Of a DNA stretch of 64,000 bases, positions 7,885 to 62,938 are shown piece by piece; position 1 is the stretch's first letter, and every line of letters begins with the position of its first letter. The notes beneath the pieces were generated by a model. It saw only the letters and a list, made by a program, of their open reading frames with translations. It was not told the DNA's origin and made no database searches. The position numbers were made by a program, and so were the translations under genes. Source of the DNA: Thioalkalivibrio thiocyanodenitrificans ARhD 1 (lineage in GTDB: Bacteria; Pseudomonadota; Gammaproteobacteria; Ectothiorhodospirales; Ectothiorhodospiraceae). Location of the stretch: NCBI RefSeq assembly GCF_000378965.1, contig NZ_KB900536.1, positions 1,480,052-1,544,051 on the forward strand, given 5' to 3'.

Positions 7885-7902
7885 GAAGGGAAAGATACCC
7901 CC

Positions 7903-7918
7903 GTGCACTGCAGTGCAC
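7903..7918. promoter_or_regulatory. Perfect 16-bp palindrome upstream of sucC
   Basis: GTGCACTGCAGTGCAC is fully self-complementary and ends 18 bases before the sucC start. It could be a repressor operator or an RNA hairpin near the start codon. The binding protein is unknown. Confidence 0.5.
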
Positions 7919-7994
7919 AAGGACGGCCTTGCGGCCGCAGCCCGGACGATACCGTAGTGCCGCTTGCCGGCGCCCCATGCCGGGTACAGGCCCG

Positions 7995-43697: not shown

Positions 43698-44644
43698 GGC
43701 AGGCGCTCCGCCACCCGCAGCACGGCGCTGCGCGCGCGGGGGTTGCCCGCCACCTCGGCTTCCCCTGCACGAACCGCGCGCCCGACCAGCCGCAGGGTCT
43801 GGCCGCGCCGGCTCTCGCGGACCGGCAGACGCCGGGGCAGGCGTTCGCCTTCGACCTGCTCGCGCATGAACCGCTTCACCAGCCGATCCTCCAGGGAATG
43901 GAAACTGATCACCGCCAGGCGCCCGCCCGGAGCCAGCAGCGCGGGTATGCTGGCGAGGCAGCGGCGCAGCATGTCCAGTTCGTCATTCACGTGGATACGG
44001 ATTGCCTGGAAAGTGCGCGTGGCCGGATGCTTGTGGCGCTCCCGGGTGGGTACCGCCGCCGCCACGAGGTCCGCCAACTGCCCGGTGCGCTCGATGGGCG
44101 TGTCGCTTCGTGCCTCCACGATCCGCCGGGCGATGCGCCGGGCGAAACGCTCCTCTCCGTAGTCCTTGAGCACCCGGGCAATGTCATCCTCCGGGGCACG
44201 GGCCAGCCAGGCGGCCGCCGACTCGCCGGAATCCGGATCCATGCGCATGTCCAGCGGCCCGTCGCTCTGAAAGCTGAAGCCACGTGCCGGGTCGTCCAAC
44301 TGGGGGGAAGAGACCCCCAGGTCCAGCAGGACCCCGTCCAGCCGGCCAGTGACTCCCAAGCTGTCTGCCACCTGCTGCAGCATGTCGAATGAACACCGCT
44401 CAAAGTGAAAGCGTTCATCGCCGCCGAATCGTCGTGCCGCCTCGGCGGCGGCCTGCGGGTCCCGATCCAGGGCGATCAATCGACCGCCCGGCCCGAGCCG
44501 CTCAAGAATCCTGCCGCTATGCCCTCCCCGGCCGAAGGTGGCATCCACATACAGCCCTTCGGGGCGTACCGCCAGTGCCTCCGTGGCCTCATCCAGCAAC
44601 ACCGCGCGATGACTGTCGGGCGCCGGATTGGAGCCCCCGGTCAC
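43694..44644 (-). CDS. rsmH: 16S rRNA (cytosine1402-N4)-methyltransferase RsmH
   Basis: 316 residues. SAM-binding [20 protein letters not shown], then [20 protein letters not shown] and [13 protein letters not shown] near the end. It methylates N4 of C1402 in 16S rRNA; RsmI, also in this window, adds the 2'-O-methyl to the same base. 4-bp overlap with mraZ. Confidence 0.96.
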
Positions 44645-45093
44645 AGGGAGAGGCTCTCCAGTGCCGCGCTCAGATCGCCGGCCTCATCCTCTTCCCGGAA
44701 CCAGTCCTCCCTGCGCCGGACCCAGGTATCCTCGTCCCACAACTCGAACTTGTTACCCTGGCCCACCAGCACCGCGCGCTTGTCCAGCGCGGCGTACTCA
44801 CGCAGCGGGGTGGGCAGCAGAATTCGGCCCTGCCCGTCCAGTTCGCATTCGGTGGCATGGCCCACCAGCAGACGCTGGAGGCGTCGGACCTGCCGGTCCA
44901 TGTTGGGGCGGGACATGAGCGCCTGTTCGATGCGCTCCCACTCGGGCTGTGGATAGACCAGGAGGCAGCCGTCCCGATCCACGGTGAGCACCAGTCGCCC
45001 TTCACAGGAATCCACCAGGCGATCGCGATACCGGGACGGCATGGCCATGCGCCCCTTGGCATCCAAATTGAGATTGGTCACGCCTCGAAACAC
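44641..45093 (-). CDS. mraZ: Transcriptional regulator MraZ
   Basis: 150 residues from GTG 45093, chosen because the conserved [20 protein letters not shown] follows at once and GGGAG lies 6 bases upstream. The second half has the matching repeat [18 protein letters not shown], so both SpoVT/AbrB-like DxKGR/DGQGR boxes are present. MraZ rings bind repeats in the dcw promoter and repress it; such boxes are visible at 45118-45142, so autoregulation is likely. A GTG at 45123 is in frame but unlikely. Confidence 0.93.
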
Positions 45094-45117
45094 GCCCGGC
45101 TCCCATTGGGGAGGGAA

Positions 45118-45142
45118 AACCACTTTCCCCCACCATTCCCCA
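45118..45142 (-). promoter_or_regulatory. MraZ operator (three boxes)
   Basis: On the minus strand TGGGG, TGGGG and TGGTT (45142-45138, 45132-45128, 45122-45118) are separated by exactly 5 bases each. MraZ is known to bind tandem TGGGN repeats with 5-nt spacers. They lie just after the -10 of the dcw promoter. Confidence 0.85.
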
Positions 45143-45151
45143 CATTTCTAC

Positions 45152-45181
45152 ACTATAGGTACGGTTCCGCCATGGTGTCAA
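45152..45181 (-). promoter_or_regulatory. dcw cluster promoter (Pmra)
   Basis: TTGACA (45181-45176) and TATAGT (45157-45152) with an 18-bp spacer on the minus strand. Transcript start expected near 45145, about 50 bases before the mraZ GTG. Confidence 0.85.
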
Positions 45182-45224
45182 GGAAAAACAGGGCCTGCCG
45201 AGCAAAAATAGTGCTTGTGTCACA

Positions 45225-45395
45225 AAGACTTAGAGCGGGGTCCTAATGGTGGGAGCAGTGCGTCCAGGCGAGCTCGAAACAGCGCATTGGGTTCACGGAG
45301 TTGGGGCCGACTGTTCACAAGTCACTTTAACTGAAGCGGGGTCCTCACCCCTGGGTTCCCGGTCCCGGGGACCCAAGGGTGCTTCATGCTTTGGA
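45225..45395. other. Non-coding spacer with palindrome and direct repeats
   Basis: The 400-bp gap between the dcw promoter and the rnpB terminator has no plausible gene. It holds direct repeats GCGGGGTCCT (near 45235 and 45336) and a large imperfect palindrome (about 45348-45382) with arms around CCTGGGTTCCCGG and CCGGGGACCCAAGG. Nothing else is seen up to 45587. Confidence 0.5.
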
Positions 45396-45587
45396 ACCGC
45401 GCCGGCCGGACGCATCCATAACCGGGTCCCTCGCGAGCAACGAAGCCCTCGAGGACCTGTACGGAACTCGCGAATACCGTACGGACAGGCCGAACACGAG
45501 ACAACCAATTGATCCTTCGATAATTTCCGTCACGAGCATTCTGGCGGGACCCGGCCGCATGTTGGCCCGGAGCCCTCCAGAACACCA

Positions 45588-45617
45588 TAAAGAGCGCCCC
45601 GGGGTCTGCCGGGGCGC
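45588..45617 (-). terminator. Rho-independent terminator of rnpB
   Basis: On the minus strand GCGCCCCGG and CCGGGGCGC pair perfectly around six bases, followed by TCTTTATGG. It lies just beyond the 3' end of the RNase P RNA. Confidence 0.92.
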
Positions 45618-45628
45618 GAAATTCAAAG

Positions 45629-45974
45629 GGAGCCGGCCTGTAAGCCGGGTTCTGTCGGGGACAGTCATTCATCTGGGACGCGCGTCACCGCGCGCCTCAA
45701 GCAGCCTACCCGGGTGCGATGCGGGCCACACCGATGCACCCCTATTTGGCCTTGCTCCGGGTGGGGTTTGCCGTGCCGCGGCGTGTTGCCACCCGCGCGG
45801 TGCGCTCTTACCGCACCATTTCACCCTTACCTGTGCCCGAAGGCCATCGGCGGTATGTTTTCTGTGGCACTTTCCGTCGGCTCGCGCCGCCCAGGCGTTA
45901 CCTGGCACCCTGCCCTGCGGAGCCCGGACTTTCCTCGACGGCGCAAGCACCGCCGCGACTGTCCGGCCGACTCC
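45629..45974 (-). ncRNA. rnpB: RNase P RNA (class A)
   Basis: About 346 nt. On the minus strand the 5' end reads GGAGTCGGCCGGACAGTCGC. The universal block GAGGAAAGTCCGGGCTCC follows, then GGCAGGGTGCCAGGTAACGC, GGTAAGGGTGAAATGGTGCG, GGAGCAAGGCCAAATAGGGG, GATGAATGACTGTCC and the 3' end ACAGAACCCGGCTTA. These are the conserved regions of bacterial type A RNase P RNA, the ribozyme that matures tRNA 5' ends. Its place near mraZ and rsmI matches pseudomonads. Ends are estimated to a few bases. Confidence 0.97.
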
Positions 45975-45982
45975 GGGTGGTT

Positions 45983-46010
45983 AGACTACCGGGGTTTCGG
46001 AAAGTTACAA
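45983..46010 (-). promoter_or_regulatory. rnpB promoter
   Basis: TTGTAA (46010-46005) and TAGTCT (45988-45983) with a 16-bp spacer; the predicted start is within a few bases of the RNase P RNA 5' end. Confidence 0.6.
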
Positions 46011-46217
46011 GAGGCTGTTGGAAACAGGGAGGGAGAACCGCGCATCGAAGAGAACCGCTATCACTGGGCGCGCAACGGAAGGCCTGGCCCCTGCGTGCGA
46101 CACCCCGCCGCATCTCTGGCATTTCATTGACCGGGGTCATGCCCGGACGCAGTGGCACTGTTAACCTGATCACAAGAAAGAGACTCAATCTCCGAAAGGG
46201 AAACTCCAGGTGGCCAC

Positions 46218-46475
46218 ATGAGTATCGGGATACTCGTCCTATTCAGCGTCTGGCTCGCCCTGTTCATCTCCATCGCGTGGGGATTCCTGGCCCGTGTGCG
46301 CCATAGCAGGCGCGTTCACGCCCAGGCAACCCGTTGCGTCGAGGCGCTGAGGGCTCAGCGCCGCGTGCTCGATTGCCTGCAATGCCCCGAACGGGCGACC
46401 TGCGCGGAGGCTCATCTGCCCAACCACTCGCCCTGGCCCGAGGACGACTGCCCGCTGCGGTCACGCGGTGCTTAG
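46218..46475 (+). CDS. Small single-pass membrane protein with Cys-rich tail
   Basis: 85 residues. An N-terminal membrane helix (ILVLFSVWLALFISIAWGFL, about 5-24) is followed by a basic stretch and a tail with CVEALRAQRRVLDCLQCPER, then TCAEA and DDCPL. Five cysteines could bind metal or form disulfides. AGGTGG precedes the ATG. No family is recognised. Codon use looks like the surrounding genes and the signal-anchor pattern is convincing, but a gene this short could still be spurious. Confidence 0.55.
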   Translation: MSIGILVLFSVWLALFISIAWGFLARVRHSRRVHAQATRCVEALRAQRRVLDCLQCPERATCAEAHLPNHSPWPEDDCPLRSRGA

Positions 46476-46557
46476 ATCAGCCGCGGCGGCGAGCGATGCC
46501 GGGGAGTCGGACCGGAACAGACCTCCGCCTGGATCAGAAAAACACCATCAGAACCGT

Positions 46558-46705
46558 CAACAGTCTGTTGTGAAAGTCTCCGGTGGATGCCAGGCAAGGC
46601 GCAAAGCAAGCAACAGCGCAGCGCAGCGCACAGGTGGGTACACGGGCATGCTGGACGTTTTCCAACGCAGCATGGCGCCAGCCGAGAGTCATTCAACAGC
46701 CTGTC
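46558..46705. repeat. MITE-like element with CAACAG-type ends
   Basis: The left end has the palindrome CAACAGTCTGTTG followed by TGAAAGTCTCCGG. The right end, read inverted, is GACAGGCTGTTGAATGA followed by CTCTCGG. The interior contains GATGCCAGGCAAGGCGCAAA, a motif recalled from dispersed non-coding repeats of beta/gammaproteobacteria. No protein is encoded. A partial copy of the end (GAGGCTGTTGGAAAC) lies at 46011-46025 by the rnpB promoter. Confidence 0.5.
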
Positions 46706-46757
46706 AAAGGGAACGGAGTGTGAAGCCTACACCCCCCCGGCCCTTTTCCTACCTTCT

Positions 46758-48413
46758 TCAGGCGGGTGCGGGCGGCCGTAAACCAAGCTGCTCGTCACCT
46801 GCCTCATGCACCTTGACACAGTTGCGACCCGCATCCTTGGCGCGGTACAGGGCAGCGTCTGCCGCAGCGATCAGGCGCTCGGGGCTCAATGCGTCGTGCG
46901 GCACCCGGGTGGCCACACCGACGCTGACCGTGACATGAGGCATGGGTTGCCCTTCGCACGCCTCCAGGTTCAGTCGGGACGCCATTTCGCGGACACGTTC
47001 CGCGACGGCTCTCGCACCGTGCGCGCCGGTATCGGGCAGAACCACGACGAACTCCTCGCCGCCGAAACGCGCCGGCAAGTCCCCCGGCCGCTGCACGGCC
47101 GAGTGGAGCACGGCCGCCAACTGCCGCAGACACTGGTCCCCGGCCAGGTGTCCGTAAAGGTCGTTGTGCCGCTTGAAATGGTCGATGTCCACCATGAGCA
47201 GGCTCAAGGGCATTTCCTGGCGTTCGCAGCGGGCCCATTCCCGGGCCAGTACCTCCTTGAAGTGCCGGTGGTTGGCGAGCCCGGTCAGGCCGTCCTTGAC
47301 GGACATTTCCTGGAGCACCCGGTTGGATTGCTCGAGTGCGCCGGCGAGTTCCACCAGTTGCGTCTGTGAGTGACTCAGCCTGCGATTGATGCGCATGATG
47401 TAGCCTGCTGCCCCGATAACCATGACCAGCAGTCCGAACAGCAGCAGGAGCCAGTGCCAGTAGTGGCGCAGCAGGGTCTCCAGATCGACGCGGTCCAGGT
47501 CCGCATAGGGGCCGATACGCAGTTCCCGCAGCAGCTCGTGCACCGGCGTGTAATCCAGCGGCATGGTCCAGCCGGCGGACTGGCTGGCGCGCGCCTCCGG
47601 GCTGTCCGGCGCGAGCTGCAGCAGCGCCACGCCCACCTGGTGGGCAAGCTGTTCCGGAACGTGCGCACTGCGCGCGAAGGCCCATTCCGGATACAGCCGC
47701 GTGCTGAGCAGGAAGGGAAAGCCCGTCACCTGCCTGCGATTGATCACCTTGAACCGTTCCATGTGCACCACCCCTTCGGCGGCCATGCGCTCCAGGGTGT
47801 CCGTACGCACGGTACCCGCATCCACTTCGCCCGCGGCGACGGCCAGCACGATCTGGTCCTGGGGCAGACCGACGTACTCGATGCGGGTGAAATCCCGCTC
47901 GGGACGGATGCCGGCCTCACGGAACTCGCGCAAGGCCATCAGATAACCCCCGAAGGCGTCTGCGCGCACCGCCATGACTGACCTGCCGCGCAGATCCCGG
48001 AGGGTTTCGATGTCATCGCGGTCCGCACGCGTGAAGATAACCGCGCCGAACTGTGTATGGACACCATCATCGCGCAGGTTGCGCAGGGTGAGGATGCGCG
48101 TCACACCGTACGTTGCCTCGAGTATCGCGTAGGAACCAGGATTGGTGATGACGAAATCCACCGTGCCGGCGGCCATGGCCTCGTCCAGGGAGATATTGTT
48201 GAGGGGAACAACACGAAACTCCCGCCCCGGCACGGCGCGGGTAAGGTACTCTGCGGTAGGTGTCCATGCCCGCACCGCCGCCTCCGGGCCGCGATGGGCC
48301 AGCACGCCGATACGCACCTCCTCGCCTGATTTTGCTTCGTCCCCAGAGGCCGTCAGTGGCAACAACGCCATGACAGCCAGGAGAATTGTCCTGCGCACTG
48401 ACTGCACACGCAC
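46758..48413 (-). CDS. PhnD-like periplasmic binding domain fused to GGDEF diguanylate cyclase
   Basis: 551 residues from GTG. A signal segment (about 8-24) is followed by a PhnD/SsuA-type solute-binding domain (about 30-285) with IGVLAHRGPEAAVRAWTPTA and DFVITNPGSYAILEATYGVT. One membrane helix (WHWLLLLFGLLVMVIGAAGY, about 320-340) leads to a short coiled coil and a GGDEF domain: KDGLTGLANHRHF, VDIDHFKRHND, and the active site GGEEF preceded at the right spacing by the I-site RPGD. It should make cyclic di-GMP in response to a periplasmic ligand, possibly phosphonate/phosphite-like or an anion; the ligand is unknown. Confidence 0.9.
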   Translation of the reverse strand: MRVQSVRRTILLAVMALLPLTASGDEAKSGEEVRIGVLAHRGPEAAVRAWTPTAEYLTRAVPGREFRVVPLNNISLDEAMAAGTVDFVITNPGSYAILEATYGVTRILTLRNLRDDGVHTQFGAVIFTRADRDDIETLRDLRGRSVMAVRADAFGGYLMALREFREAGIRPERDFTRIEYVGLPQDQIVLAVAAGEVDAGTVRTDTLERMAAEGVVHMERFKVINRRQVTGFPFLLSTRLYPEWAFARSAHVPEQLAHQVGVALLQLAPDSPEARASQSAGWTMPLDYTPVHELLRELRIGPYADLDRVDLETLLRHYWHWLLLLFGLLVMVIGAAGYIMRINRRLSHSQTQLVELAGALEQSNRVLQEMSVKDGLTGLANHRHFKEVLAREWARCERQEMPLSLLMVDIDHFKRHNDLYGHLAGDQCLRQLAAVLHSAVQRPGDLPARFGGEEFVVVLPDTGAHGARAVAERVREMASRLNLEACEGQPMPHVTVSVGVATRVPHDALSPERLIAAADAALYRAKDAGRNCVKVHEAGDEQLGLRPPAPA

Positions 48414-49116
48414 CCCTGCTCTGCGCGCGCCCGCTCATGGTCATTCCGATGCGGGCCAGCGCGTTCTTCTTGTTTGTCCGCGTGGGCAATGGCGGTCGTC
48501 GTCCCTGTGTCGGGCGGCGCACACCTTGAACTCCCCACGCCATACTATCCGCAAACGCGGGGTACGCCACTCTTTCCCACAACCCTCTTAAGGAATAATC
48601 CTGATACAGACGACCGCGCAGCAGAGGGCGCTCGGGTGGGTCGCCCCGGGTTCTTCCCAGACTTCACGGACACATCGATCAAGCCTCACACTGAGCGCGG
48701 ATGTGTGTCATGGCAGGTAGAAGACCATTCTCACCGGAGTTCAAGCGGGATCCGGTCCGGACTGGTGCGATCCGAATCGCGCGTTGCCGAGCCGCCTTCC
48801 CGATTCGACGGATCGGTACGTACCTGAAGGTCTCGCCCAGTGGGTAACTACGGCTGGCGTGAGCGAGTGCCGGGAGTGCCACGCCTCCTCAGTATGCGCG
48901 TGGTCCCCGCGGACCGAACCATGTTGCCCGGGTGATGCGGATCAACGCAATTCAGGGTGCCCCGCCGCGGGCACGGTGGCGCATCCGGCATTTGTCTCAA
49001 TGTTGCACACCTTCAATCAATCATTCCGAAGCACGACACCGATGTGGAAAAAGAGGCGGTATGATCATCTGCCGGATACCCCTTGTGTCGGGTAATTACC
49101 AAACTTGTACATACAC
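48414..49116. other. Gene-poor spacer in the accessory block
   Basis: About 700 bp without an intact gene. 48710-48985 contains fragments of an IS3-family element (separate entry). 48414-48700 shows no recognisable coding, RNA or repeat structure. From about 49080 the GC content drops into the next gene. Confidence 0.6.
48710..48985 (+). pseudogene. Degenerate IS3-family transposase remnant (OrfA start joined to OrfB piece)
   Basis: ATG at 48710 reads MAGRRPFSPEFKRD, the OrfA N-terminus of IS3-type elements, then decays. In another frame near 48810, DRYVPEGLAQWVTTAGVSE resembles the OrfA helix-turn-helix. From 48920 HVARVMRINAIQGAPPRAR resembles an early OrfB segment (VARLMR...). Frame changes and missing parts show a deleted, non-functional copy. 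It marks past IS activity beside the low-GC operon end. Confidence 0.55.
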
Positions 49117-49872
49117 TCATTGGTCACCAACACCGTTTGCTTTGCTCAATACTTCCATTACTTCATCATCAAAAATATAAGCCATTGACCAGACAAGCTT
49201 CCTTTCAAACGTCTTCCCCTCCCATGAGCCACTTCTAAAGCGAATGACCACGACGTCCTCGTCAAAAGACACCTCCCAATCACCGGGGTCACACCCGAAC
49301 ATACCATTCAGCTTCTCGACGACTTCAGCGGTCTCCCTCCCCCCGTATTCGGCACCGGCTCCAGAACATAAGCGAACCCGCCGACAAGCGCTCCCAGGAA
49401 CGTCTCTCCACACTGTTACCGATGCAAGCCTCCGCATATACCTTGGATTAAATCCACCAAAGCGCCGAACGACGGTCCTCCCACACACGACATCTTCACG
49501 CGTCCCTCGTGGACTTGGCCAATAATCAAGCAGAGGTCTATCAATTGACACCTCAATGCTCGAACTATCAAAAGACCCACGGATCTTTCCGCCCACATGA
49601 CTTACCTTCCACCCAGCCGCTCTGACCGTTCGTTCCACATCTGACTTTAGGAACAAACATAGACGCCACGTCACCGTGACAAAAGCAAGCGCCACCAGAA
49701 TCAACGCGGCGTCACGATGGCCAACCATTTTAGGAGTGGATGGATGATCAGGAAGGAACCAGTTCTGGACCGAGACAACAAATATTAAAATAGACCCAAT
49801 CGCCAGAATATATGAAACATACCAAGTCACCGCGAGCGCGCTCGGCGGAGCATCGTATCTACAAAGACCCAT
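49117..49872 (-). CDS. Two-helix membrane protein, candidate immunity/partner of the upstream gene
   Basis: 251 residues from ATG 49872, where AAGAAGG lies 6 bases upstream; it overlaps the end of the preceding gene by 14 bp. Two membrane segments (about 14-40, TWYVSYILAIGSILIFVVSV, and about 54-75, ALILVALAFVTVTWRLCLFL) precede a soluble domain of about 170 residues (GGKIRGSFDSSSIEVSIDRP and onward). No family is recognised. GC is far below the chromosomal genes (near 48% by eye), like the last part of the preceding gene, so both look acquired together. As the last gene of the operon after a variable C-terminus, it fits an immunity protein; this is inference only. Confidence 0.75.
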   Translation of the reverse strand: MGLCRYDAPPSALAVTWYVSYILAIGSILIFVVSVQNWFLPDHPSTPKMVGHRDAALILVALAFVTVTWRLCLFLKSDVERTVRAAGWKVSHVGGKIRGSFDSSSIEVSIDRPLLDYWPSPRGTREDVVCGRTVVRRFGGFNPRYMRRLASVTVWRDVPGSACRRVRLCSGAGAEYGGRETAEVVEKLNGMFGCDPGDWEVSFDEDVVVIRFRSGSWEGKTFERKLVWSMAYIFDDEVMEVLSKANGVGDQ

Positions 49873-50350
49873 GTAACGCCTTCTTGCCAATCGAGGCTAT
49901 TCTGTTGGCCTCCAGTTTCGAGGCCGCATAGAGTTTACCATTCAGCACGCCATACATAATTCGATCAAATTCGGAGAAAATTGCACCAAGAATCCAGTTC
50001 TTAAGTATTGAGATCACGAATGCGACTAATAGAGCAACAAATATGGCGACGAGGATCGGAGACGCGAATCCAGACAAGAAACCAAAGGCTATTGCACCCA
50101 AATAACCCGAAAGGACGGTCAAGGCCAAATCAATTGCCCCCGCACCAAGCGCGCTCCATGGATTTCCGGTAGCCGAGTACGTTAAGTATGCAGTTAGCAT
50201 AGCACTGAGCCCTGCTAACACATTACTAACGTCTTTAATTGCTGTGACATAATGGGCAAGAGCGACGCCAGCCTTAGCGAGAAAGCTGGCAAGATCAGCA
50301 ACCACACTCAGTATGGATAGACCGGCGCTTGCAAGGTCAGTCTCAGAATA
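49859..50350 (-). other. Low-GC C-terminal module of the transglutaminase-fold gene
   Basis: Codons 882-1044. GC falls from the mid-60s to under 50% within a few codons after the Gly-rich motif. It encodes hydrophobic stretches such as VLAGLSAMLTAYLTYSA and ASPILVAIFVALLVAFVISI. Sharp composition break at a domain boundary, continuing into the next gene, suggests recombination of a C-terminal module plus partner. Confidence 0.6.
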
Positions 50351-52993
50351 CGAACCATTCCCTCCACCCCCAATCTTCCAGGCCCCCGCTCCAGTCTCCG
50401 CATCAAAGATCACATACCCGGCCCCGCTCCACCCCGGCACGCTGACGGGGTCGGTGTGCACGATCACTTCCTTGCCCACCGCCAGTGCCGCGCGGATCTC
50501 GTTCATGGTCAGGCTGTTCTGACGGATGTGCGGCAACGCCTCGGCCTGGTTGGCCGGGGTAATATGATAGATGCGCTGGCCCTGTTGGGAAGCCTTCTGC
50601 AGCGCCTTGACCGCCGAGACCGCCTCGCCGGGGTTCTCGGGCGTCACGAACATCTGCTCGGGTACGGCGTGCTCCAGGGCGGAACTCAAGGCACCCAGCT
50701 GGAAGTTGAAGTTCTTCCAGGTCTCATGGCCCTGCCCGTCGACGCTCGAGACGTGCGCCACCCGGTCCAGGTCCATCTCCACGCCGCCGGGGGTGATGCT
50801 TCTCGGAATACCGAAGAAGTAGGTGACGTTCGGCACGTAGCCGTAGGTACCGACCGAGGTGGCCAGCTGGAAGTGGCTCTGCTGCGTCAGGGCGGACAGA
50901 TGCCCCAGGGCCAGATACTGGGCGAAGTAGCCCAGCAGCCCCGCGTGGAACATGTCTCCCAGCAGCTCTTCTCTTGTCAGGCCCTCAAGCAGTGCCTCAT
51001 TCTCGGATTCGAGGATGTCCCGGGTCTGTTCCAGGCGCGTCTGCGCCTCTTCCAGGCTGCCTACCGCCACGCTGCCGCCGATCACGCCCACCGCCAGGTA
51101 GGAACCGGCCACCACCTTGTTGGGGTAGTGGCGGGTGCCGTGCACGGGGTCCCGGACGCTGTAGCGGAATGCGAGTTCCTCGCCCAGGCTCATGGGCGAG
51201 CCGGTGAGTACGGTTTCCCCTTTCACCTTGAGCTCGGGCACCACCTGGATGAGATAGGCCGGGATGCTGGAGGGCAGCTGGCTGATGTTGATGTCGGTGA
51301 TCTCGCCCTCGGGCAGCAGCGCAATAAGGGCATCTTCATCGGCCTGGGTCGCGGGGCGGAACGAGAGGGTGATGCGCGCATTGTTGACCTGGGCCCAGGG
51401 GAAGCTGGTCTGGGCCAGGGGATCACCCAGGATGTCGGCTCCGAGGCCGAAGCTGATGCGCGGCTGCAGCGCCTGGGGCAGGACCGCGTAGCGCACGCCT
51501 TCAACAGCCCGCGGATAGGGCAGTCCGCTCGGCAGGATGGGCTCCTCCCGCACAATGACCTTTCGACCGCCGATGACCTCGCCCACGGTGGGTTCGTGCA
51601 TCTGTCCGATGCACGCCTCCAGCGCCTGACGGGCATCCTCCTGGGCTGCCTCAAGCAGGGTGGAATCAAGCCCCTGGACCCAACCCTCGGATTCGTTGAC
51701 GGCACCGCTTTGTAAAAATCTGTCGGTCAGGGCTTGGGCGTCGATCCCGGCGATGGCCGCCACGTCCAGGCCTTCCAGGAATTCGTATTGCTTGAAGCTC
51801 GCATCCAGGGCAAGCCAGGTGTCGGCGCCGCGCATCACCGCGCCCCGCGAGGGCAGGAAGTCGATGGCCGCCTCGGCCCAGACATGCTCCATGCGCACAT
51901 GGGTCACACGGCCGCCCTGGATGAGCCCGGTCACCGGGATGCCTCCGGAGGCGGCATAGTCCATGGCCTCCTCGATACTCTCGAAACCACCCGCCCAGTT
52001 GCGGAACCTGTCCTCGGGCACCTCGATGGTGCCGTGGACATAGCGGGCGGGCACGTCAGAGGCCCGCAGCAGGGCCACCAGCAACCCGGCGATGTCCATG
52101 GCGTTGCCTCGTTGCGCCGACAGCGTCAGGTCGCTGTCCTGCACGGCGCCCCAGGTGGGCAGCCATTCGACGTTGTTGCGCACCCAGTGGTAGATCTCCA
52201 CCGGCTGGTGATTCAGTTCCGCCGCCTTTGCGCGGATCTCCGGACTGAGCCGGATCTCGATGGTTTCATCCAGGTAGGCCGGATCATCGGCACCGGGAAG
52301 CAGATCGTAGGTGTAGCCTTCCAGGCCCGCCCATTGCGCCAGCGGATTGTCCAGGAGCCCCGCGCCCAGAAAGCCGTCCCGGCCTTCCCGCGGCAGATTG
52401 TCCGGGTTGGGCCGCTGGGGGCCGTGGGGCAGCTGCTGCGGGTCGAAGGGATGCTGGGATCGCTCGAGTTGTCGCGCTGAGAGACGCCGTTCGGCGCGTT
52501 CGATGCGATCGCGCAGTTCGCCTTCCGATTCGATGGTTTCGATGCCGGTGAGGTCCTCAAGGAGGGATCTCATTTCCTCCCGGTAGGCGGCGACCGTTTC
52601 GTGATGCCGGGCGACGATTTCCCCGGGCACAGCGCGCTCCCGCAGACGGGCCTCGATCCCGTCGAACTCGTGCAGGATGCCCTGGTCCAGGGCGGCGATC
52701 TGGCGGCGCAGGTCGGCGAGTGCCCGGCGTTCTTCGGCGATGGCCCGGCCCTGGCCGATACCGCGTTCAGCGGAGCGCAACACCTCTCGGGCCTCACGAA
52801 GCGAGGCCGCCAGGCGTTCCCCCTTGGTCGGGGCCCTGACGCGCTCTTCCTGGTGCCCGTGCGAATCGGCATGTAACGCCGCGGCCAACGGTTGGGTGAT
52901 CAACATGGTGAATGCAACGATCACCACCATCGCGACCGTTCGACAAAAGAGGGTGTGCCGGAAGATCAATGGAAAACCTGCTGTGGTACACAT
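49859..52993 (-). CDS. Secreted transglutaminase-fold protein with variable hydrophobic C-terminus
   Basis: 1044 residues. Signal segment about 17-40; coiled coils about 50-180; a transglutaminase-like core about 255-400 with PVEIYHWVRNNVEWLPTWGA, then GNAMDIAGLLVALLRASDVP and ARYVHG, HVWAEAAIDF (His) and WLALDASFKQYEF (Asp). The position of the catalytic Cys (4 before the Ala of DIAG) is Ala, so it is probably inactive. A large middle region of unknown fold follows. At 853-882 the motif PGWSGAGYVIFDAETGAGAW and a Gly-rich GGGGNGSY precede about 160 hydrophobic residues (several membrane helices) encoded in low-GC DNA. Such proteins are known next to RHS-type toxin genes. Here the C-terminus itself looks like an exchanged module. 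Starts 42 bases after the 1211-residue gene. Confidence 0.88.
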   Translation of the reverse strand: MCTTAGFPLIFRHTLFCRTVAMVVIVAFTMLITQPLAAALHADSHGHQEERVRAPTKGERLAASLREAREVLRSAERGIGQGRAIAEERRALADLRRQIAALDQGILHEFDGIEARLRERAVPGEIVARHHETVAAYREEMRSLLEDLTGIETIESEGELRDRIERAERRLSARQLERSQHPFDPQQLPHGPQRPNPDNLPREGRDGFLGAGLLDNPLAQWAGLEGYTYDLLPGADDPAYLDETIEIRLSPEIRAKAAELNHQPVEIYHWVRNNVEWLPTWGAVQDSDLTLSAQRGNAMDIAGLLVALLRASDVPARYVHGTIEVPEDRFRNWAGGFESIEEAMDYAASGGIPVTGLIQGGRVTHVRMEHVWAEAAIDFLPSRGAVMRGADTWLALDASFKQYEFLEGLDVAAIAGIDAQALTDRFLQSGAVNESEGWVQGLDSTLLEAAQEDARQALEACIGQMHEPTVGEVIGGRKVIVREEPILPSGLPYPRAVEGVRYAVLPQALQPRISFGLGADILGDPLAQTSFPWAQVNNARITLSFRPATQADEDALIALLPEGEITDINISQLPSSIPAYLIQVVPELKVKGETVLTGSPMSLGEELAFRYSVRDPVHGTRHYPNKVVAGSYLAVGVIGGSVAVGSLEEAQTRLEQTRDILESENEALLEGLTREELLGDMFHAGLLGYFAQYLALGHLSALTQQSHFQLATSVGTYGYVPNVTYFFGIPRSITPGGVEMDLDRVAHVSSVDGQGHETWKNFNFQLGALSSALEHAVPEQMFVTPENPGEAVSAVKALQKASQQGQRIYHITPANQAEALPHIRQNSLTMNEIRAALAVGKEVIVHTDPVSVPGWSGAGYVIFDAETGAGAWKIGGGGNGSYSETDLASAGLSILSVVADLASFLAKAGVALAHYVTAIKDVSNVLAGLSAMLTAYLTYSATGNPWSALGAGAIDLALTVLSGYLGAIAFGFLSGFASPILVAIFVALLVAFVISILKNWILGAIFSEFDRIMYGVLNGKLYAASKLEANRIASIGKKALHGSL

Positions 52994-53035
52994 CGAAGTC
53001 GATCCCTCGAAAAAACCGTTTATTCCGTTCAGAAC

Positions 53036-56000
53036 TCAGATCTCGCCGGAGATCCCGCGAATCAGCCAGGAGAGGGCTTCGCGCAACTGGCGCGCCTCCG
53101 GCTCGTGAATACGCGCTAGCCAGTCCGCCACCTTCAAGAGATGGAACACGGCCTTCTCCGGATCGCCACGCTCATGGAAGGAGTAGGCTTGGTCCAACTT
53201 CTCGAGGGCCCGCCCATAGTCCGCGTGGAACTCCAACCGGCCCAGAAGCCCAACCCGTACCTCATCGAACGATGGCGGCGACGAAACCTGGAAGCGGTGT
53301 CGGCTGGTGCCGTATTCCACCAGGCTCACCCCCTCGCGCAGTTCGATTTTTGCGCTGACCCAGGCATCCTCGACGTCGTCCGGCAGCAACCACCAGAACA
53401 CCCGCTCCAGTTCCTCGCCGGCTGCAAACTCAAGGTCGAACACCACGGTGTACGGATCAAGCGGAACGCCCACCCCAGGATCAAGAAGCACCCCGTCGGC
53501 CGTCTCCAGGGTCAGGCGAACGGATGCCAGGTCGCCCCGGTTGAGGATCCGCCAGTGGACCGGAACGGCCATCCCGGCGCGATGCAAACCTGGTGCTGGC
53601 TGGACGTGTTCAAGGGCATCAAGCAACAGCCGGGCAAAGACGCCCTCCGCGCCCTGCGCGTGGGCCTGTGCCAGCATGTCGAATCCGGCAATCACGGCCC
53701 TACCGGAACCGAACTGATGAACCGCCATGGCCGTGCCATCCTGTGGCCGACCCCGGGGCACCCTGTACTCGGCCACCGGCACGGCACCCACAAGTCGAAG
53801 CGCCAGGGACCACTCACTGTCCGGGAAGCCCGCCTCCGGCACATCGATCGGCGCGCCTGCGACCGGCTCGATACCGGTCGCCTCCGGCAACATGCCTACG
53901 ATCCGGACCCCGAACACGTCCAGAGAATCGCCGTCCATCATCAACTGCTGATTACGATGATCCCGGCCACCGGCCATGACGATGCCTGCGCCCCCGTAGA
54001 TCGCTTCGCGAAGCTCGCGCTCCACCTGCGGCTTGAGGGCCACATCGGACGAAAGCAGCAGGTAGGCGCTGTAGCCACCACTCCGCAGTTCTCGTGCAAA
54101 AGCATCACGGTCGGTCACGATGGTGTGGAACCAGCCCGCATCCCGGAGCAGGGACGTCAGAAAATCACGCTGTTCGGCGACTCCATCAGCTGACAACGGA
54201 TGTACGCCTGCAAAGGTGAACGCACCCAACTCCATGCCCGTCTCGGGATAATCGCCACACGCCGTCTCGACAAGACCGGTGTCAAACTCCCGCACGGTTC
54301 CATCCTCCTGCTGAACGGTGGCCAGCAATCGAACATGGCCTGTGAGCGCTTCACCGGCCTCGGATGCCTCCACAAGCAGCCGGATACCATTCACCGTGAG
54401 GGCCTGGATGCCGAGATTGGCCTCCTGCCCGGGATTCCGGTCAACGGGGAAGCCGTCTCCGATGCGAGCGGTCTCCGTGTCGAGCAGGAGCCCTGATCCA
54501 TCAAAGAGACTCACCTGCAAGGTGTCACCATGAATCAACCCGCCGGGCGGCATCAGATCCCACTGCATTCCGCCGACGCCTTCACACTGCTCCCTGCGCG
54601 GCGCGTCCATCAGGACCAGAAGCCGTCCACGCCCACCCAACGCAGGTGTTGATAGGAATTTCTCCTCCACACCAACGGCGGCATGGTCAAGGACCCGAAC
54701 CTCTCCCTGGATCTCCGCACTGAGTACGGCCATCAACACAGTGCCCGCCGGTTCGAGCGCCGACCAGGAGCCCGTCAGGCTGGCGACGCCGTCACGGGGA
54801 AGGTCCAAGGTCTTCGACCAGCTGGCCAGCTCCTGTTCGTTCTCCGGATCCAGCAACGTGAGGGTCACCGGCAGATCCACCAAGGCATCATTGCCGTGGT
54901 TGCTCAGCCGGGCTTCCAGGTACAGGGATTCGCTGCGCAACACGGGATCGGGCGTAGCCGAAACGCTGCCGGAAAGACCTGCACCCGTTTCACTGGTGGA
55001 CAACACCCCGAACTCGGTACTGGTGACGGCACGGGACACCCCTTCGGCATCACGAACCGTCAGGACAACCTGATAAACGCCTGCCGGCGCGGACCCCAAT
55101 GGCATGGACCGAACCATGTCCTGTTGGCTGCCCGGCATCAGCGTACGCAGTGCCAGTTCGTCACTCCACATCGGACTGCCGGCAACATCCAGCACCTGCA
55201 GACTCGCCGTATAGCCCTCCAACTGCAGGTTCGGTGCGGTATTGCGGAAGCGGGCGGTAATCACCACCGTCTCCAGGGGCGCGTAGACCGCCTGATCCGT
55301 ATTCACCGAGGCGCCGAGCCCGGTGTCCTGCGGCGCATCGATTCTGAACGCCGAGACCACTTCGTGGCTGGATCCACCGTCCTCCTCAATCAACCGCAGC
55401 ACGACCTCGTAGTCGCCAGCGTAAAGTCCCGAGGTATCGATCAGGCGCGGCGTCACGGAGACGAGCGCACCGGCCGCCACGGCCAGGGCATCGATGCCGG
55501 GCAGAACCGCCACCACGGCGCCGGCGCCATCCCGAACCTCGATGGTGGCGGTAGCTGTTGCGTCCACGGCATCGAGGTTGGCGATCTCGACAGAGACACT
55601 CACCGCTTCCCCGGGGAGATAGCTGCTCTTGTCCGTGGACAACGCGATGTCAAAGCCCGAAGGCAGAACGTCAACACCCTGGGGGCCCAGGAGGCGGGTA
55701 TGCTCACGGCCTGTGAGATCGGTGTAGGTGATCACCACCTGGTCCACAACAGGCCGATGTTCCCCGGGCTGCGGATCCATGACGGTCACACCGAAATCGA
55801 GATCCTCGAGACGCCCTATGGTGAACGTTTCGAAGGACCACTCGATCTCGATGCGGTCCGCAAAGGTTTCCACCCGTTCCGGAGAGACAGCAAACGAGTC
55901 CGGATCCAGCTCGATGCCCTCACTCGACAGCGTGGCAATGACAGTGACATTCCGATAATCCGGGTCACCATCGATGGGTTGACCGCCGACCATGACCCCA

Positions 56001-56671
56001 TCGAATGCCAGGCCTGATTGATAGCGCGTATCCCTCCAGTTGACCACGCCAAGCTCCAGGACGTAGTTTCCGATCTCAGGAAACACGTAGCCGGAATGAA
56101 CCCACCCGGTGTAGCCGCACCCACTGCTGTAACAACGCCCTGAATCCGTCCCGAGCGGACTCCACGCCGGGCCACCCCGGATGATCTCCACGCTCTCGGG
56201 CGTGAGTTGTGCCTCCACCTCCGGCATACCGAAACCGGGCACGATGTTGCCCGTCGAGCGGGTACGTGCAGTGAACAACAGGGCGACCTGTTCCATGGAC
56301 TCATCCAGAACCCGGGCCCATGCGTAATCGGCATATCCCCCGCCGTCGGTCGTCACATAGTTGAAGTAGAAGGCCAGCTCCTCCCCGGACTCTGCGGAGA
56401 ACAGCGGGGAGCGCAGGCGAGAGCCATTGGTCCCCCCGATTCCAGGCAAGGTGGCGCCACGAAAGCTGCTCCCGGTGGTTGCCACCCAGCCGTACTGGGC
56501 CGCCCCCGTGGGCGACAGGGTGACCACCCCGTCCTCCGGGGAAGTGCCGCAGTTCCCCTCGCAGGTCCAACCGCTTGGGATCCCGTTCTCGAATCCGGCG
56601 CCCGGAACAGCGGCCGAGAGGCACGCGAGCAAGCCCAGCAACGCGATGCGCATCCATACGGATCGTGTCAT
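53036..56671 (-). CDS. Large secreted protein with CARDB-like repeats and Rossmann-like domain
   Basis: 1211 residues. Signal peptide 1-25. An N-terminal beta-rich domain (about 25-215) has paired Cys (CEGNCG and CYSSGCGY) and resembles surface-anchored jelly-roll modules. Several CARDB/Ig-like beta-sandwiches follow (about 340-650), each opening like STDKSSYLPGEAVSVSVEIA or VNTDQAVYAPLETVVITARF. A region near 835-1000 (YSAYLLLSSDVALKPQVERE, AGIVMAGGRDHRNQQLMMDG, GSGRAVIAGFDMLAQ) looks like a glutamine-amidotransferase-like Rossmann fold without an obvious catalytic triad. The end is a short helical hairpin. Its ATG overlaps the stop of the upstream gene (ATGA). Function unknown; a surface or periplasmic scaffold is likely. 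Confidence 0.85.
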   Translation of the reverse strand: MTRSVWMRIALLGLLACLSAAVPGAGFENGIPSGWTCEGNCGTSPEDGVVTLSPTGAAQYGWVATTGSSFRGATLPGIGGTNGSRLRSPLFSAESGEELAFYFNYVTTDGGGYADYAWARVLDESMEQVALLFTARTRSTGNIVPGFGMPEVEAQLTPESVEIIRGGPAWSPLGTDSGRCYSSGCGYTGWVHSGYVFPEIGNYVLELGVVNWRDTRYQSGLAFDGVMVGGQPIDGDPDYRNVTVIATLSSEGIELDPDSFAVSPERVETFADRIEIEWSFETFTIGRLEDLDFGVTVMDPQPGEHRPVVDQVVITYTDLTGREHTRLLGPQGVDVLPSGFDIALSTDKSSYLPGEAVSVSVEIANLDAVDATATATIEVRDGAGAVVAVLPGIDALAVAAGALVSVTPRLIDTSGLYAGDYEVVLRLIEEDGGSSHEVVSAFRIDAPQDTGLGASVNTDQAVYAPLETVVITARFRNTAPNLQLEGYTASLQVLDVAGSPMWSDELALRTLMPGSQQDMVRSMPLGSAPAGVYQVVLTVRDAEGVSRAVTSTEFGVLSTSETGAGLSGSVSATPDPVLRSESLYLEARLSNHGNDALVDLPVTLTLLDPENEQELASWSKTLDLPRDGVASLTGSWSALEPAGTVLMAVLSAEIQGEVRVLDHAAVGVEEKFLSTPALGGRGRLLVLMDAPRREQCEGVGGMQWDLMPPGGLIHGDTLQVSLFDGSGLLLDTETARIGDGFPVDRNPGQEANLGIQALTVNGIRLLVEASEAGEALTGHVRLLATVQQEDGTVREFDTGLVETACGDYPETGMELGAFTFAGVHPLSADGVAEQRDFLTSLLRDAGWFHTIVTDRDAFARELRSGGYSAYLLLSSDVALKPQVERELREAIYGGAGIVMAGGRDHRNQQLMMDGDSLDVFGVRIVGMLPEATGIEPVAGAPIDVPEAGFPDSEWSLALRLVGAVPVAEYRVPRGRPQDGTAMAVHQFGSGRAVIAGFDMLAQAHAQGAEGVFARLLLDALEHVQPAPGLHRAGMAVPVHWRILNRGDLASVRLTLETADGVLLDPGVGVPLDPYTVVFDLEFAAGEELERVFWWLLPDDVEDAWVSAKIELREGVSLVEYGTSRHRFQVSSPPSFDEVRVGLLGRLEFHADYGRALEKLDQAYSFHERGDPEKAVFHLLKVADWLARIHEPEARQLREALSWLIRGISGEI

Positions 56672-59400
56672 GGGGAGTCCTCCACGCCTTCTATGCGCAG
56701 TCTTATGCGTACGCCCTTGCTTTCGCCCGGGGTGATACTTTCGGGTTCCGCTCCCAGGTGACCCTCAATCCGGATGTTCGGCGGCACGATCAGGTCGTCG
56801 GTACGCACTGAGCTCACGGTCATGCCCAGCACGTTCACGACTTGAATCGGGTAAGAACCGGCCTCTTCAAACGCTTGGGTGATCGTCCCCAAAGAGACAA
56901 GACTGGAGGATGCGGCAGCCATGACCGGGATGTGCGCGTCACCCTGATGTACCACGTTTCCATCAGGGTCAATCAAGGCATAGTCAAAGGTCAGCTCGGA
57001 GTCGACGTTCGAGAGGTTTTCCAAACTCGCCAGGAACTCGACCTCCACCTCCTCACCCCTGATCACCTGGGTCGGAACGGTATGGATACCCAGCGAGCGC
57101 AGACGGCTGGTTTCCACCACACGGATGAGCACCATCTCTTCGGACAAGAGAACGTCCCGATGCTCCGTGAGGACTTGCACATTTATGCGGTAATCCCCGG
57201 GCGGCCAGTTTCCGGGTGACCAGGTGAATTCACGGGTCACCAATTCGCCCGGATCGATGTCGAATCGTGCGTCACGAGGACCTCCCGGGACCGGGATCAC
57301 GAAGTCCTCACGCAGGTCGTTATTGATCCCCAGCACGGTCGCCGCCATCACCACCCGCTGACTCTCATCCCCTTCGTTCTCGACCTCCGCCGAGACCAGC
57401 ACCTCATCGAAGGCCTCATAAGCCACGCGATCCTTGACCACGCGCACAATTCCTATGCCATCCGTAGCGGCCTTCTGCAGCGGGATATCCAGACGAACGA
57501 CACCATGCTGCTGGAGGACGAAACCATTGGATCCCGAGAGATAACCAACCGCGCTCGCGGACACCTCGAACGCCAGCGATTCTATGTCCGTGATCTGGTA
57601 TTGCCCGCTCTCATCGGTCGAAGAGGACAAGCCACCCACTGTCACGGTCGCCCCGGCAACCGCTAGATCCGTCTCCACGTCATAGACGCGCCCGTGCAGC
57701 GTGGTGGCAGGATCCGGGAGCGGAATCAGGTGCAACGTGCCGATGGTCACCTGGGATCCGGGAACGGCAACCAGATTCACCGCAACGGATTGGTAGCCTT
57801 CCCGGGTAACATGCAGCACGAGTTCCCCGGCTTCCAGATCACCAAGGACGAATACGCCTGCACCATCAGTGGCGGCCGCTGCCGTCCCATCCTTGAGCGT
57901 GACCGATACACCTTCCATGGCAAGACCGGTATCCACGTCCACGATGGTCCCGGTGATCGAGACCGGCCCATCCGGCACCTGGCCATCATCCGGATGCAGC
58001 GCAGGGGAGAATTCCACCCGCTGCCCCGCCTGCACCGTCGCGGTTGCATTGACCGAATGGTATCCCGGGGCAACCACCTGAATGTGCACCAAACCCGGCG
58101 ACACCGTTACCGCGTAACGGCCATCCATGCCTGTCGAGACCGACACATCGGCATCACCACTGAACCCGATTGTTGCTGTCACGGGCGAGCCGGTGCCAGC
58201 ATCGCTCAGGCGTCCGGAGATCAGCGCGGTTTGAGGAGCAGCGGGAAGGCGCACCGCTCCCAGATCCAGGAACTGACCGGCCTGCAGGGAAATCGACTGG
58301 ACGTACCCCGCGTATCCGGCGGCACCGTAACTTACGGTGTACCCTTGCGGCTCCAGGTCCTCGAGTGTGAACCGTCCGTCCGTTCCGGTGGGAAGGGTTA
58401 TGCTCGAACCATCGTCACCCGCGGCAGTGACCATCACCCCATTGAGCGGCACCCCAGTGGAGTCATCAAGAACCCGGCCACCGATCGCCGCCAGCCTCGG
58501 TACCGGCGGACTTGTGACGGCTCGCGGCGCCTCGATTGCGCGCAAGGCCAAAGCCGTGGCCAACACACTGCCATCCCAGGATCCGTTCGCACCCTGCCTT
58601 GCGAGCAGCTGATTCAGCGCAGCATCGTATCTGGACGTGTCCGTGGTGAGGGGTATCAGGGCCAGAAGGGCTTCGGCGCTTTCCCAGATCTCCCCCCAGA
58701 GCCCCTGCTCCTGATTGTTCCAGAGAAAGTCTGCGGCACGCTGCAATGGCGCAGACAGGTTGTAGTCAAAGCGGTGGGGTTGAAGAACCGACAGCGCACG
58801 GGATGTCAGATAGAAAGACGGGAGACTCACAGAAGTGGCCGAGAAAGAACCGTCGGCATGCTGGCGTTGCAGCAGGTAGGCAATGGAAGGTTGAATCACG
58901 GCCCCGCTTGCGACTCCCGCAACCGCCAAGGCTTCCAGCGCGTCAAGTGTATCCAGAACACTGCTCTGATCACCCGGACGTCCGCCAAAACCGCCGTCCT
59001 CGTTCTGATGGATGAGCACTGCCTCGACTTCATCAGAACCGGACTGCCCTGCCAGTCTTCGCGCGATCAGCACACGGGACAGGTACGGCAAGGCGCCGTC
59101 CACGCTGGCCGCATCAAGGTATCCCAGCCCGCCTGCCTGCGCGGACTCCGAACCCCGCCCCGGGAGACGAAGCGCACGCAGGGATTCGCTGGTGGAGTGA
59201 TACGGGAGACTCTCGTCAGAGGACGACGCGAATCGCCCATCGTCATGCTGTTGATGCAACAGCCACTCCACCGCGGCCTCGTTCCCCTTTGCGGGAGAAG
59301 CCAGCACGGCGCAGACAATGAGAGGGAAGAATACGGCGCCAGAAATGATGCGCCAGCAGAAATGCCCATCCGGCAATCGTGATCGAGCAGCCATGCTCAT
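56668..59400 (-). CDS. Secreted alpha/alpha-toroid protein with carboxypeptidase-regulatory-like repeats
   Basis: 910 residues. Signal/anchor about 15-40. Residues 42-290 hold squalene-cyclase/prenyltransferase-type toroid repeats with the pattern Q-x-x-x-DG-x-F/W: LLHQQHDDGRF, LIHQNEDGGFGG, LLQRQHADGSF, LLARQGANGSWDG. Then four beta-sandwich repeats of the carboxypeptidase regulatory type (about 305-645), each with G-x-V-x-D...T-D-x-x-G-x-F/Y (TGTDGRFTLEDLEPQGYTVS, STDESGQYQITDIES). Two more Ig-like domains end the protein. No cyclase DxDD motif is seen, so an enzyme role is unlikely; the toroid resembles the binding/thioester-type domain used in alpha-2-macroglobulin relatives. First gene of the operon. 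Confidence 0.87.
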   Translation of the reverse strand: MSMAARSRLPDGHFCWRIISGAVFFPLIVCAVLASPAKGNEAAVEWLLHQQHDDGRFASSSDESLPYHSTSESLRALRLPGRGSESAQAGGLGYLDAASVDGALPYLSRVLIARRLAGQSGSDEVEAVLIHQNEDGGFGGRPGDQSSVLDTLDALEALAVAGVASGAVIQPSIAYLLQRQHADGSFSATSVSLPSFYLTSRALSVLQPHRFDYNLSAPLQRAADFLWNNQEQGLWGEIWESAEALLALIPLTTDTSRYDAALNQLLARQGANGSWDGSVLATALALRAIEAPRAVTSPPVPRLAAIGGRVLDDSTGVPLNGVMVTAAGDDGSSITLPTGTDGRFTLEDLEPQGYTVSYGAAGYAGYVQSISLQAGQFLDLGAVRLPAAPQTALISGRLSDAGTGSPVTATIGFSGDADVSVSTGMDGRYAVTVSPGLVHIQVVAPGYHSVNATATVQAGQRVEFSPALHPDDGQVPDGPVSITGTIVDVDTGLAMEGVSVTLKDGTAAAATDGAGVFVLGDLEAGELVLHVTREGYQSVAVNLVAVPGSQVTIGTLHLIPLPDPATTLHGRVYDVETDLAVAGATVTVGGLSSSTDESGQYQITDIESLAFEVSASAVGYLSGSNGFVLQQHGVVRLDIPLQKAATDGIGIVRVVKDRVAYEAFDEVLVSAEVENEGDESQRVVMAATVLGINNDLREDFVIPVPGGPRDARFDIDPGELVTREFTWSPGNWPPGDYRINVQVLTEHRDVLLSEEMVLIRVVETSRLRSLGIHTVPTQVIRGEEVEVEFLASLENLSNVDSELTFDYALIDPDGNVVHQGDAHIPVMAAASSSLVSLGTITQAFEEAGSYPIQVVNVLGMTVSSVRTDDLIVPPNIRIEGHLGAEPESITPGESKGVRIRLRIEGVEDSP

Positions 59401-59430
59401 GTCCCTTGATCCACTCCTTGGATGCGCCTT

Positions 59431-59459
59431 TTTATATCATGCAGGGTACGTGGTCGCAA
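59431..59459 (-). promoter_or_regulatory. Promoter of the secreted-protein operon
   Basis: TTGCGA (59459-59454) and TATAAA (59436-59431) with a 17-bp spacer on the minus strand, about 30 bases before the 910-residue gene. The four genes downstream are overlapped or closely spaced, so one transcript is likely. Confidence 0.7.
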
Positions 59460-59564
59460 CCTTGCAAGCATTCACCCCGACCGACGCGGATCGGGAAGGG
59501 CCACGCCCTCCAACCCTGTCCTTCCGACCACCACTCTGCGTGCACCGATGGACGAATGACCCCT

Positions 59565-60419: not shown

Positions 60420-60513
60420 ATCCACCCCCGGTCCAGATACTGGCTCCTGCCAGCGACAGCGCCCGCCCGCCAGTCTACGCGCACCCACGGACACAAGACC
60501 AATCCCGACACCC

Positions 60514-62445: not shown

Positions 62446-62798
62446 AGACGCAACGCCAGGGACGGCGCGCGGAACAGGAGGCCCTCGCCTTCCTGCAGGC
62501 GCGCGGCCTTCACCTCATCGAGTCCAACTACCGGTGCCGTGCCGGCGAGATCGACCTGGTCATGGCGGACGGCGAGACCCTTGTCTTCGTGGAAGTGCGC
62601 ATGCGTATCAACAGGCGGTTCGGCGGCGCGGCTGCCAGCGTGACCCCGGCCAAGCAGCGGCGCCTGTGCGCCGCCGCGCGCCATTACCTCCTGATCCGCG
62701 GCGAACCGGAAGGACCCATGCGCTTCGACGTGGTGGCCCTCGAAGGCGGCTCGACCCCGCACTGGATTCCCAACGCCTTCGATGCGCCGGTGGATTGA
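62442..62798 (+). CDS. yraN: YraN family (UPF0102) endonuclease-like protein
   Basis: 118 residues from TTG, overlapping the lpoA stop by 4 bp. Restriction-endonuclease-like fold: GRRAEQEALAFLQARGLHLI, then NYRCRAGEIDLVMADGETLV and FVEVRMRINRRFGGA (the E..D..ExK-type core has ExR here). Role uncertain; proposed in DNA processing. Confidence 0.92.
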   Translation: MKTQRQGRRAEQEALAFLQARGLHLIESNYRCRAGEIDLVMADGETLVFVEVRMRINRRFGGAAASVTPAKQRRLCAAARHYLLIRGEPEGPMRFDVVALEGGSTPHWIPNAFDAPVD

Positions 62799-62938
62799 CT
62801 GCCGCAACTGCCGCCTGTCCGGCCGCTCACGGTCTGTCCCGACGGCCCGTCGACTTGCCGGGGCCCGGTCCCCTGCGCCCACGCGGGAACCGGGAGGGCG
62901 GAGAGACGCCGGCGCCCGTCCCGTGGCAAACTGAATCC

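Follow-up and report, generated by a model that had tools for sequence, protein, structure and literature searches.

An RHS-free transglutaminase-fold carrier with exchangeable hydrophobic tips as a candidate polymorphic toxin/immunity system in Thioalkalivibrio and other bacteria

Polymorphic toxins whose carriers contain an inactive transglutaminase (TG) domain have been described as TG-RHS proteins, in which that domain is always followed by RHS repeats, and most of the tips recorded for polymorphic toxins are enzymes, with few noncatalytic ones listed (Zhang et al. 2012, PMC3482391). The MafB/MafI systems of Neisseria keep silent cassettes that lack an initiation codon, and the MafB toxin that has been tested degrades RNA (PMC4287609). 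Membrane-active effectors are known from Serratia, in which Ssp4 is a membrane toxin paired with an integral inner-membrane immunity protein, Sip4 (PMC12669606), and Ssp6 forms an ion-selective pore (PMC6889166). Here we analyze a 64,000-nucleotide stretch of the genome of Thioalkalivibrio thiocyanodenitrificans ARhD 1 (contig NZ_KB900536.1, positions 1,480,052 to 1,544,051 of the forward strand; referred to as the window), in which P0001, a carrier protein with a TG fold, ends in a hydrophobic tip and is followed by a small gene, P0002. We consider it probable that the two constitute a polymorphic toxin/immunity pair in which a non-RHS, inactive-TG carrier delivers membrane-active tips and P0002 provides immunity.

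The locus has a putative signal peptide, a TG domain with a lost catalytic residue, a variable C-terminal predicted toxin, and a downstream predicted immunity gene in common with the TG-RHS toxins (PMC3482391), and one distant relative of the carrier (locus L105) has RHS repeats; the present carrier, unlike those toxins, runs from TG domain through body and pre-toxin domain to tip without RHS, and its tips are overwhelmingly hydrophobic. A secreted carrier, an exchangeable C terminus, a downstream immunity gene, and silent cassettes are shared with MafB/MafI (PMC4287609), but the carrier is a different one, and the present tips are mostly of membrane type, in contrast to the RNA-degrading MafB that was tested. 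By hydropathy, the predicted hydrophobic helical toxin is like those of Ssp4/Sip4 and Ssp6/Sip6 (PMC12669606, PMC6889166) and the W-TIP domain (PMC3482391), a matter of resemblance rather than homology, and the membrane-type immunity partner, here also predicted by hydropathy, recalls Sip4. Ssp4 and Ssp6, however, use type VI secretion, and neither they nor W-TIP have been described as an exchangeable set of tips on one carrier. Open-access full texts yielded no account of TG carriers that lack RHS repeats and have hydrophobic tips, which is weak evidence, most subscription journals and preprints lying outside that collection.

P0001 consists, in order, of a putative signal peptide, a helical bundle, the TG fold, a beta-rich body, a pre-toxin domain, and the hydrophobic tip (Table 1). 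The signal-peptide-like stretch was recognized by eye, and the TG core is the only Pfam match to the carrier. The position of the catalytic Cys is occupied by Ala298, and in an alignment of 41 homologues Cys is absent from all 34 that have a residue in this column; His370 and Asp397 are retained, each in 37 of the 37 homologues that cover the column. On these residues the TG domain of the carrier is predicted to be inactive. The best structural match to the P0001 model and its TG core was 3isr, a transglutaminase-like protease (Z 13.1, root mean square deviation 4.7 over 156 residues), and the matches to the full model were dominated by the TG domain and helical bundles. A Pfam search that detects RHS repeats in L105 detected none in P0001. 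The statement in an earlier, sequence-only reading of this DNA that no RHS protein is present is correct for the window but not for the genome, in which a single RHS open reading frame (ORF) of 1635 amino acids lies about 1.4 Mb away. The pre-toxin domain ends in PGWSGAGYVIFDAETGAGAWKIGGGGNG (residues 853-880; first base of the motif, 50437), and no Pfam or NCBIfam model matches it; searched against solved structures, its profile gave weak matches to hexapeptide-repeat-type proteins (E 0.01), which we took as chance.

The exchange junction was located by comparison with Thioalkalivibrio sulfidiphilus ALJ17 (G003), a same-genus relative with the same three genes, P0004, P0003, and P0001. Window positions 50355-59420 match G003 in one long blastn block (87.9% over 9,088 bp) that takes in P0004, P0003, and the P0001 body, has nothing adjoining it on either side, and ends at codon ~880, inside the GGGxNG run that follows PGWSGAGY. 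Past the junction G003 has an unrelated hydrophobic tip and then an unrelated 182-amino-acid multihelix membrane protein. DNA identity before and after this point is 0.91 and 0.29 for the window and G003 and 0.96 and 0.31 for two cassettes of another relative, G065. At the protein level, identity to P0001 across 41 aligned carriers falls from 0.65 at residues 861-880 to 0.11 at residues 881-900, and the AlphaFold model has a low-confidence linker at 878-897, between the confident body and the helical tip. The sequence-only reading had anticipated a body conserved up to the PGW...GAG motif and followed by unrelated C termini and unrelated next genes, and this is what the homologues display; the opposing pattern, the same C terminus and next gene throughout, was not seen. 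The contigs of G027 and G039 end at the junction and that of G044 ends just past it, breaks of a kind that repeats would cause.

Base composition changes at nearly the same place. The abrupt decrease in GC (guanine-plus-cytosine) content reported earlier, after the motif and the Gly-rich run, was recovered as a step from ~0.65 to 0.47-0.51 at ~50400; GC stays low through P0002 to ~49100 and recovers beyond the end of that gene. Tip GC is below body GC in 25 of the 26 relatives whose body exceeds 55% GC (means of 0.63 for the body, 0.49 for the tip, and 0.455 for the next 300 bp), with almost no decrease in the Pyxidicoccus pair and none in L078. The decrease could be explained in part by codons for hydrophobic residues, yet GC is low in the soluble part of P0002 as well, and we regard the decrease as supporting evidence for a foreign origin rather than proof.

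One scan of 84,980 species genomes (one genome per species), made with a profile (A2) built on the ~115 residues that precede the junction, identified 76 loci; several of these are contigs of one organism, and the counts are not independent. Carriers of the domain were found in Thioalkalivibrio, Methylobacter, Methylovulum, Thiomargarita, Parabeggiatoa, Photobacterium, Pseudoalteromonas, Acinetobacter, Psychrobacter, Moraxella, Pyxidicoccus, Dokdonella, Desulfurivibrio, and some metagenome-assembled genomes (MAGs) of other phyla, and in an even sample of the class the domain was present in 20 of 369 genomes. Six-frame analysis of the loci yielded 117 matches to the A2 domain and 76 closed ORFs with tips of 60 to 260 amino acids, and these 76 tips fell into 58 groups unconnected by BLAST. 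With membrane helices called by a Kyte-Doolittle rule and next genes picked mechanically, 64 of the 76 tips had a mean hydropathy above 0.5, each with 1 to 4 predicted membrane helices, and a membrane-type next protein (at least one predicted helix) stood behind 51 of the 55 hydrophobic tips that have an ORF close downstream, compared with 6 of 12 soluble tips (Fisher p 0.0014). In distant carriers of the pre-toxin domain, the C terminus is formed by Ntox16 (two Pyxidicoccus), NlpC/P60, or DUF6310, or RHS repeats are present (L105); therefore, known toxin domains do occur at the site behind the junction. In Psychrobacter a soluble tip is followed by a tandem of two related small genes for soluble proteins (L071:4332-5170), likely a poly-immunity array, and two small genes in the Moraxella macacae array (L074:6782-7237 and 11371-11841) weakly resemble DUF3592, below the cutoff, and could represent an immunity family that goes with one type of tip.

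Tips are also stored in cassettes. In G065, three 5'-truncated body copies come after a full-length gene, each of the copies with a different tip at the junction and a different small gene behind it; a repeat of ~160 bp, the ends of which are inverted repeats (GTAGGTTGGGCTGACGAAAGGAAGCCCAAC...), stands at the cassette starts, and transposase-like genes are interspersed. Similar tandem 5'-truncated cassettes occur in G078, Moraxella macacae, and Desulfurivibrio, and silent cassettes were found at the relatives' loci L024, L028, L035, and L074. The G065 repeat copies (L024:3630-3800, 6325-6490, 7867-8037, and 14000-14170) are REPIN-like and may aid cassette movement. Genes resembling repetitive extragenic palindromic (REP)-associated tyrosine transposases were recognized by eye behind the toxin/immunity end in G003 (L022:5570-6118) and in a Ctena symbiont MAG (L057, downstream of 6702); a search of the window with one pattern for a REP-like repeat found none.

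The tip and the gene behind it travel together. In Desulfurivibrio sp. AMeS2, a member of another phylum (L035), a full-length gene with a different tip is followed by a spare cassette bearing a tip of the window type (53% identity over 123 amino acids), directly behind which lies a homologue of P0002 (35% over 243 amino acids, E 1e-34). Across the junction, DNA identity goes from 0.94 to 0.27 between this cassette and its own full gene and from 0.76 to 0.62 between the window and the cassette, the latter after-junction value being due to the shared tip; there is also a weak similarity between the tips of the Desulfurivibrio full gene and of the cassette (27%, E 3e-4). The G065 array includes an orphan P0002-like gene (L024:14143-14802). 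When all pairs were considered, downstream ORFs were related in 5 of 20 pairs with related tips and in 9 of 2830 pairs with unrelated tips; the associated p of 2e-8 assumes independent pairs, which these are not, but the direction is clear. Some of the nine unrelated-tip pairs stem from repeats between G065 cassettes and possibly from shared immunity types, and the next gene was common to all four of the strongest tip pairs with usable downstream DNA. The toxin/immunity layout proposed from the window sequence is further supported by silent cassette arrays, cotravel of tip and next gene in another phylum, and toxin domains on distant carriers.

The description of the last ~160 codons of P0001 as very hydrophobic was confirmed (residues 884-1044, mean hydropathy +1.01, three predicted membrane helices), and the 251-residue length of P0002 and its 14-bp overlap with P0001 correspond to the ATG at 49872; a TTG at 49890 would give 257 residues. 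The AlphaFold model of P0002 agrees, at low confidence (pLDDT 59, three sequences), with the predicted two membrane helices plus soluble domain, placing two long N-terminal helices before an alpha/beta part. P0002 has no family match in Pfam, NCBIfam, or PADLOC and no credible match among solved structures. In the plasmid collection there was no match to the tip, the pre-toxin domain, or P0002, and the TG region alone was matched, mostly in RHS proteins. Nothing was found by PADLOC, nor by Rfam in window positions 46000-60000; a promoter and terminator scan of 48400-50400 was uninformative, with no promoter scoring above shuffles.

We infer surface export, delivery into a rival, toxicity, a pore mechanism, and immunity along the following lines. 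The carrier would be the last protein of a Sec-exported three-gene surface system, the partners of which, P0003 and P0004, would export or display the toxin. The tip would most likely be delivered to neighboring, closely related cells, where it would insert into the inner membrane and depolarize it as a pore or channel, and P0002 would most likely reside in the inner membrane of the producer and block the tip. Homologous recombination within the body or the pre-toxin domain, either with foreign DNA or with silent cassettes, would supply new tip/immunity pairs, and the whole island moves between sites as well. Action of the tip on membranes would accord with the hydrophobicity of the tips and with partners of membrane type, and insertion into the inner membrane of a rival with depolarization, the mechanism that we propose for the present tip, is the best inference because of these tips and neighbors and the precedents of Ssp4/Sip4 and Ssp6. 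More tentatively, the three-gene unit might itself be an undescribed contact or surface delivery system that brings exchangeable membrane toxins into the rival inner membrane without using RHS shells or secretion of types V, VI, and VII.

Several points weigh against a membrane-active toxin with its immunity protein. A search of the window's own genome found no spare cassette, and many weak tip pairs have no detectable neighbor relation, in part because short membrane proteins diverge past detection. The numbers of helices come from a simple hydropathy rule, the AlphaFold model of the tip is of low to middling confidence (block means of about 34 to 73), and a search of solved structures gave no sequence match of the tip to any pore former. 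Moreover, several strong hydrophobic helices could cause a Sec-exported protein to stall in the inner membrane of its own producer.

The tip could be an antibacterial membrane toxin that is not a pore former but instead inhibits a membrane enzyme or transporter or acts as a translocator. The wide differences in tip length and sequence would suit such a toxin, as would the soluble domain of P0002, which is sizeable beside its two membrane helices and exceeds what a simple pore blocker needs, but the tips are all-helical and hydrophobic with no conserved polar catalytic motif, and their partners are mostly small membrane proteins, like those of known depolarizing toxins; we consider a nonpore mode of action unlikely. 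A different alternative is that the variable end is no toxin but anchors the TG-fold protein to the inner membrane of the producer, with a membrane partner encoded by the next gene. A Sec signal combined with strong hydrophobic helices that would serve as stop-transfer segments and a neighborhood consisting mostly of membrane proteins are in keeping with an anchor, which would, however, have no need of dozens of unrelated replacements, of storage in silent cassettes, or of cotravel with a neighbor across phyla, and in distant carriers this position is occupied by Ntox16, NlpC/P60, or further soluble domains; on balance, an anchor seems quite improbable. Fast evolution of the C terminus without exchange, in favor of which even related tips are less identical than the body (53% for the tip versus 80% for the pre-toxin domain), is ruled out for practical purposes by the identity steps of 0.94/0.27 and 0.96/0.31, which occur within a few codons between copies 91 to 96% identical just before the junction, by the change in GC at the same point, and by the existence of cassette arrays and cotravelling next genes.

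The carriers look like a little-noticed family of antibacterial toxins in which the same body is combined with dozens of unrelated tips across many bacteria, the hosts being gammaproteobacteria (including Acinetobacter, Moraxella, Photobacterium, methanotrophs, and sulfur bacteria) and some members of other phyla. They hold a large and diverse stock of short membrane-type tips accompanied by small membrane proteins, and there are essentially no family models for the carrier body, the pre-toxin domain, or the tips and immunity genes that were checked. If P0001 and P0002 are toxin and immunity protein as proposed, this stock would comprise many new membrane toxin/immunity pairs and an RHS-free class of carrier, and it would offer a clear test of how hydrophobic tips exit the producer and enter a rival.

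Table 1. Coordinates, in window positions, of the carrier locus and the island that contains it
Feature	Position	Strand	Evidence
P0001, predicted toxin carrier protein, 1044 aa	49859..52993	-	AlphaFold mean pLDDT 81.8, pTM 0.75
Transglutaminase-like core, residues 249-397	51803..52249	-	Pfam PF01841 9.3e-13
Pre-toxin domain, residues ~767-880	50354..50695	-	own profile A2
Exchange junction	50355	.	end of DNA homology to same-genus G003
Exchangeable tip, residues 884-1044, hydrophobic, all-helical, predicted membrane-active toxin	49862..50344	-	profile/hydropathy, AlphaFold, Desulfurivibrio homologue
P0002, predicted immunity protein: two membrane helices plus soluble alpha/beta part	49117..49872	-	homologue behind same tip in L035
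P0003, upstream partner 2, 1211 aa, secreted: NF038132 domain, Ig/MG2-like domains, conserved C-terminal region	53036..56671	-	NCBIfam NF038132 1.4e-85; MG2 5.9e-06, below cutoff
P0004, upstream partner 1, 910 aa, secreted: prenyltransferase/squalene-cyclase-like alpha-toroid repeats, then carboxypeptidase-regulatory-like beta-sandwich repeats	56668..59400	-	Pfam PF13620 1.9e-40, PF00432 4.6e-07
13.5-kb island: three-gene operon, immunity gene, GGDEF gene	46031..59544	.	absent at same site in relatives

Exchange takes place at two levels, that of the whole island and that of the tip with its neighbor. The flanks of the island in the window (44251-46030 and 59545-64000) are only 384 bp apart in G001 (94% and 93% identity) and 2 to 3 kb apart in G002, G003, and G004, and the site is empty of the island in all four of these same-genus genomes. 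The flank of G003's own copy is found elsewhere in the window's genome, 1.7 Mb from the window island (82%).

Among the 41 full-length carriers for which sufficient upstream sequence was available, 23 have a P0003-like gene directly upstream and 4 have a P0004-like gene within reach, most flanks being too short to extend to P0004. In Spartinivicinus (L142:5484-15197), an annotated prenyltransferase/squalene-oxidase repeat gene directly precedes a TG-RHS toxin, so that transglutaminase toxins with and without RHS may share an alpha-toroid partner. The conserved C-terminal part of P0003 (residues ~825-1211, 53036-54200) has no Pfam match and by eye resembles a glutamine-amidotransferase/ThuA-type fold. 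The island lies near the cell division gene mraW in the window, and its 551-amino-acid ORF at 46758-48413 appears by eye to be a periplasmic-binding-like sensor fused to a GGDEF domain; homologous DNA (86%) is present in G002 on contig C117, away from the island site.

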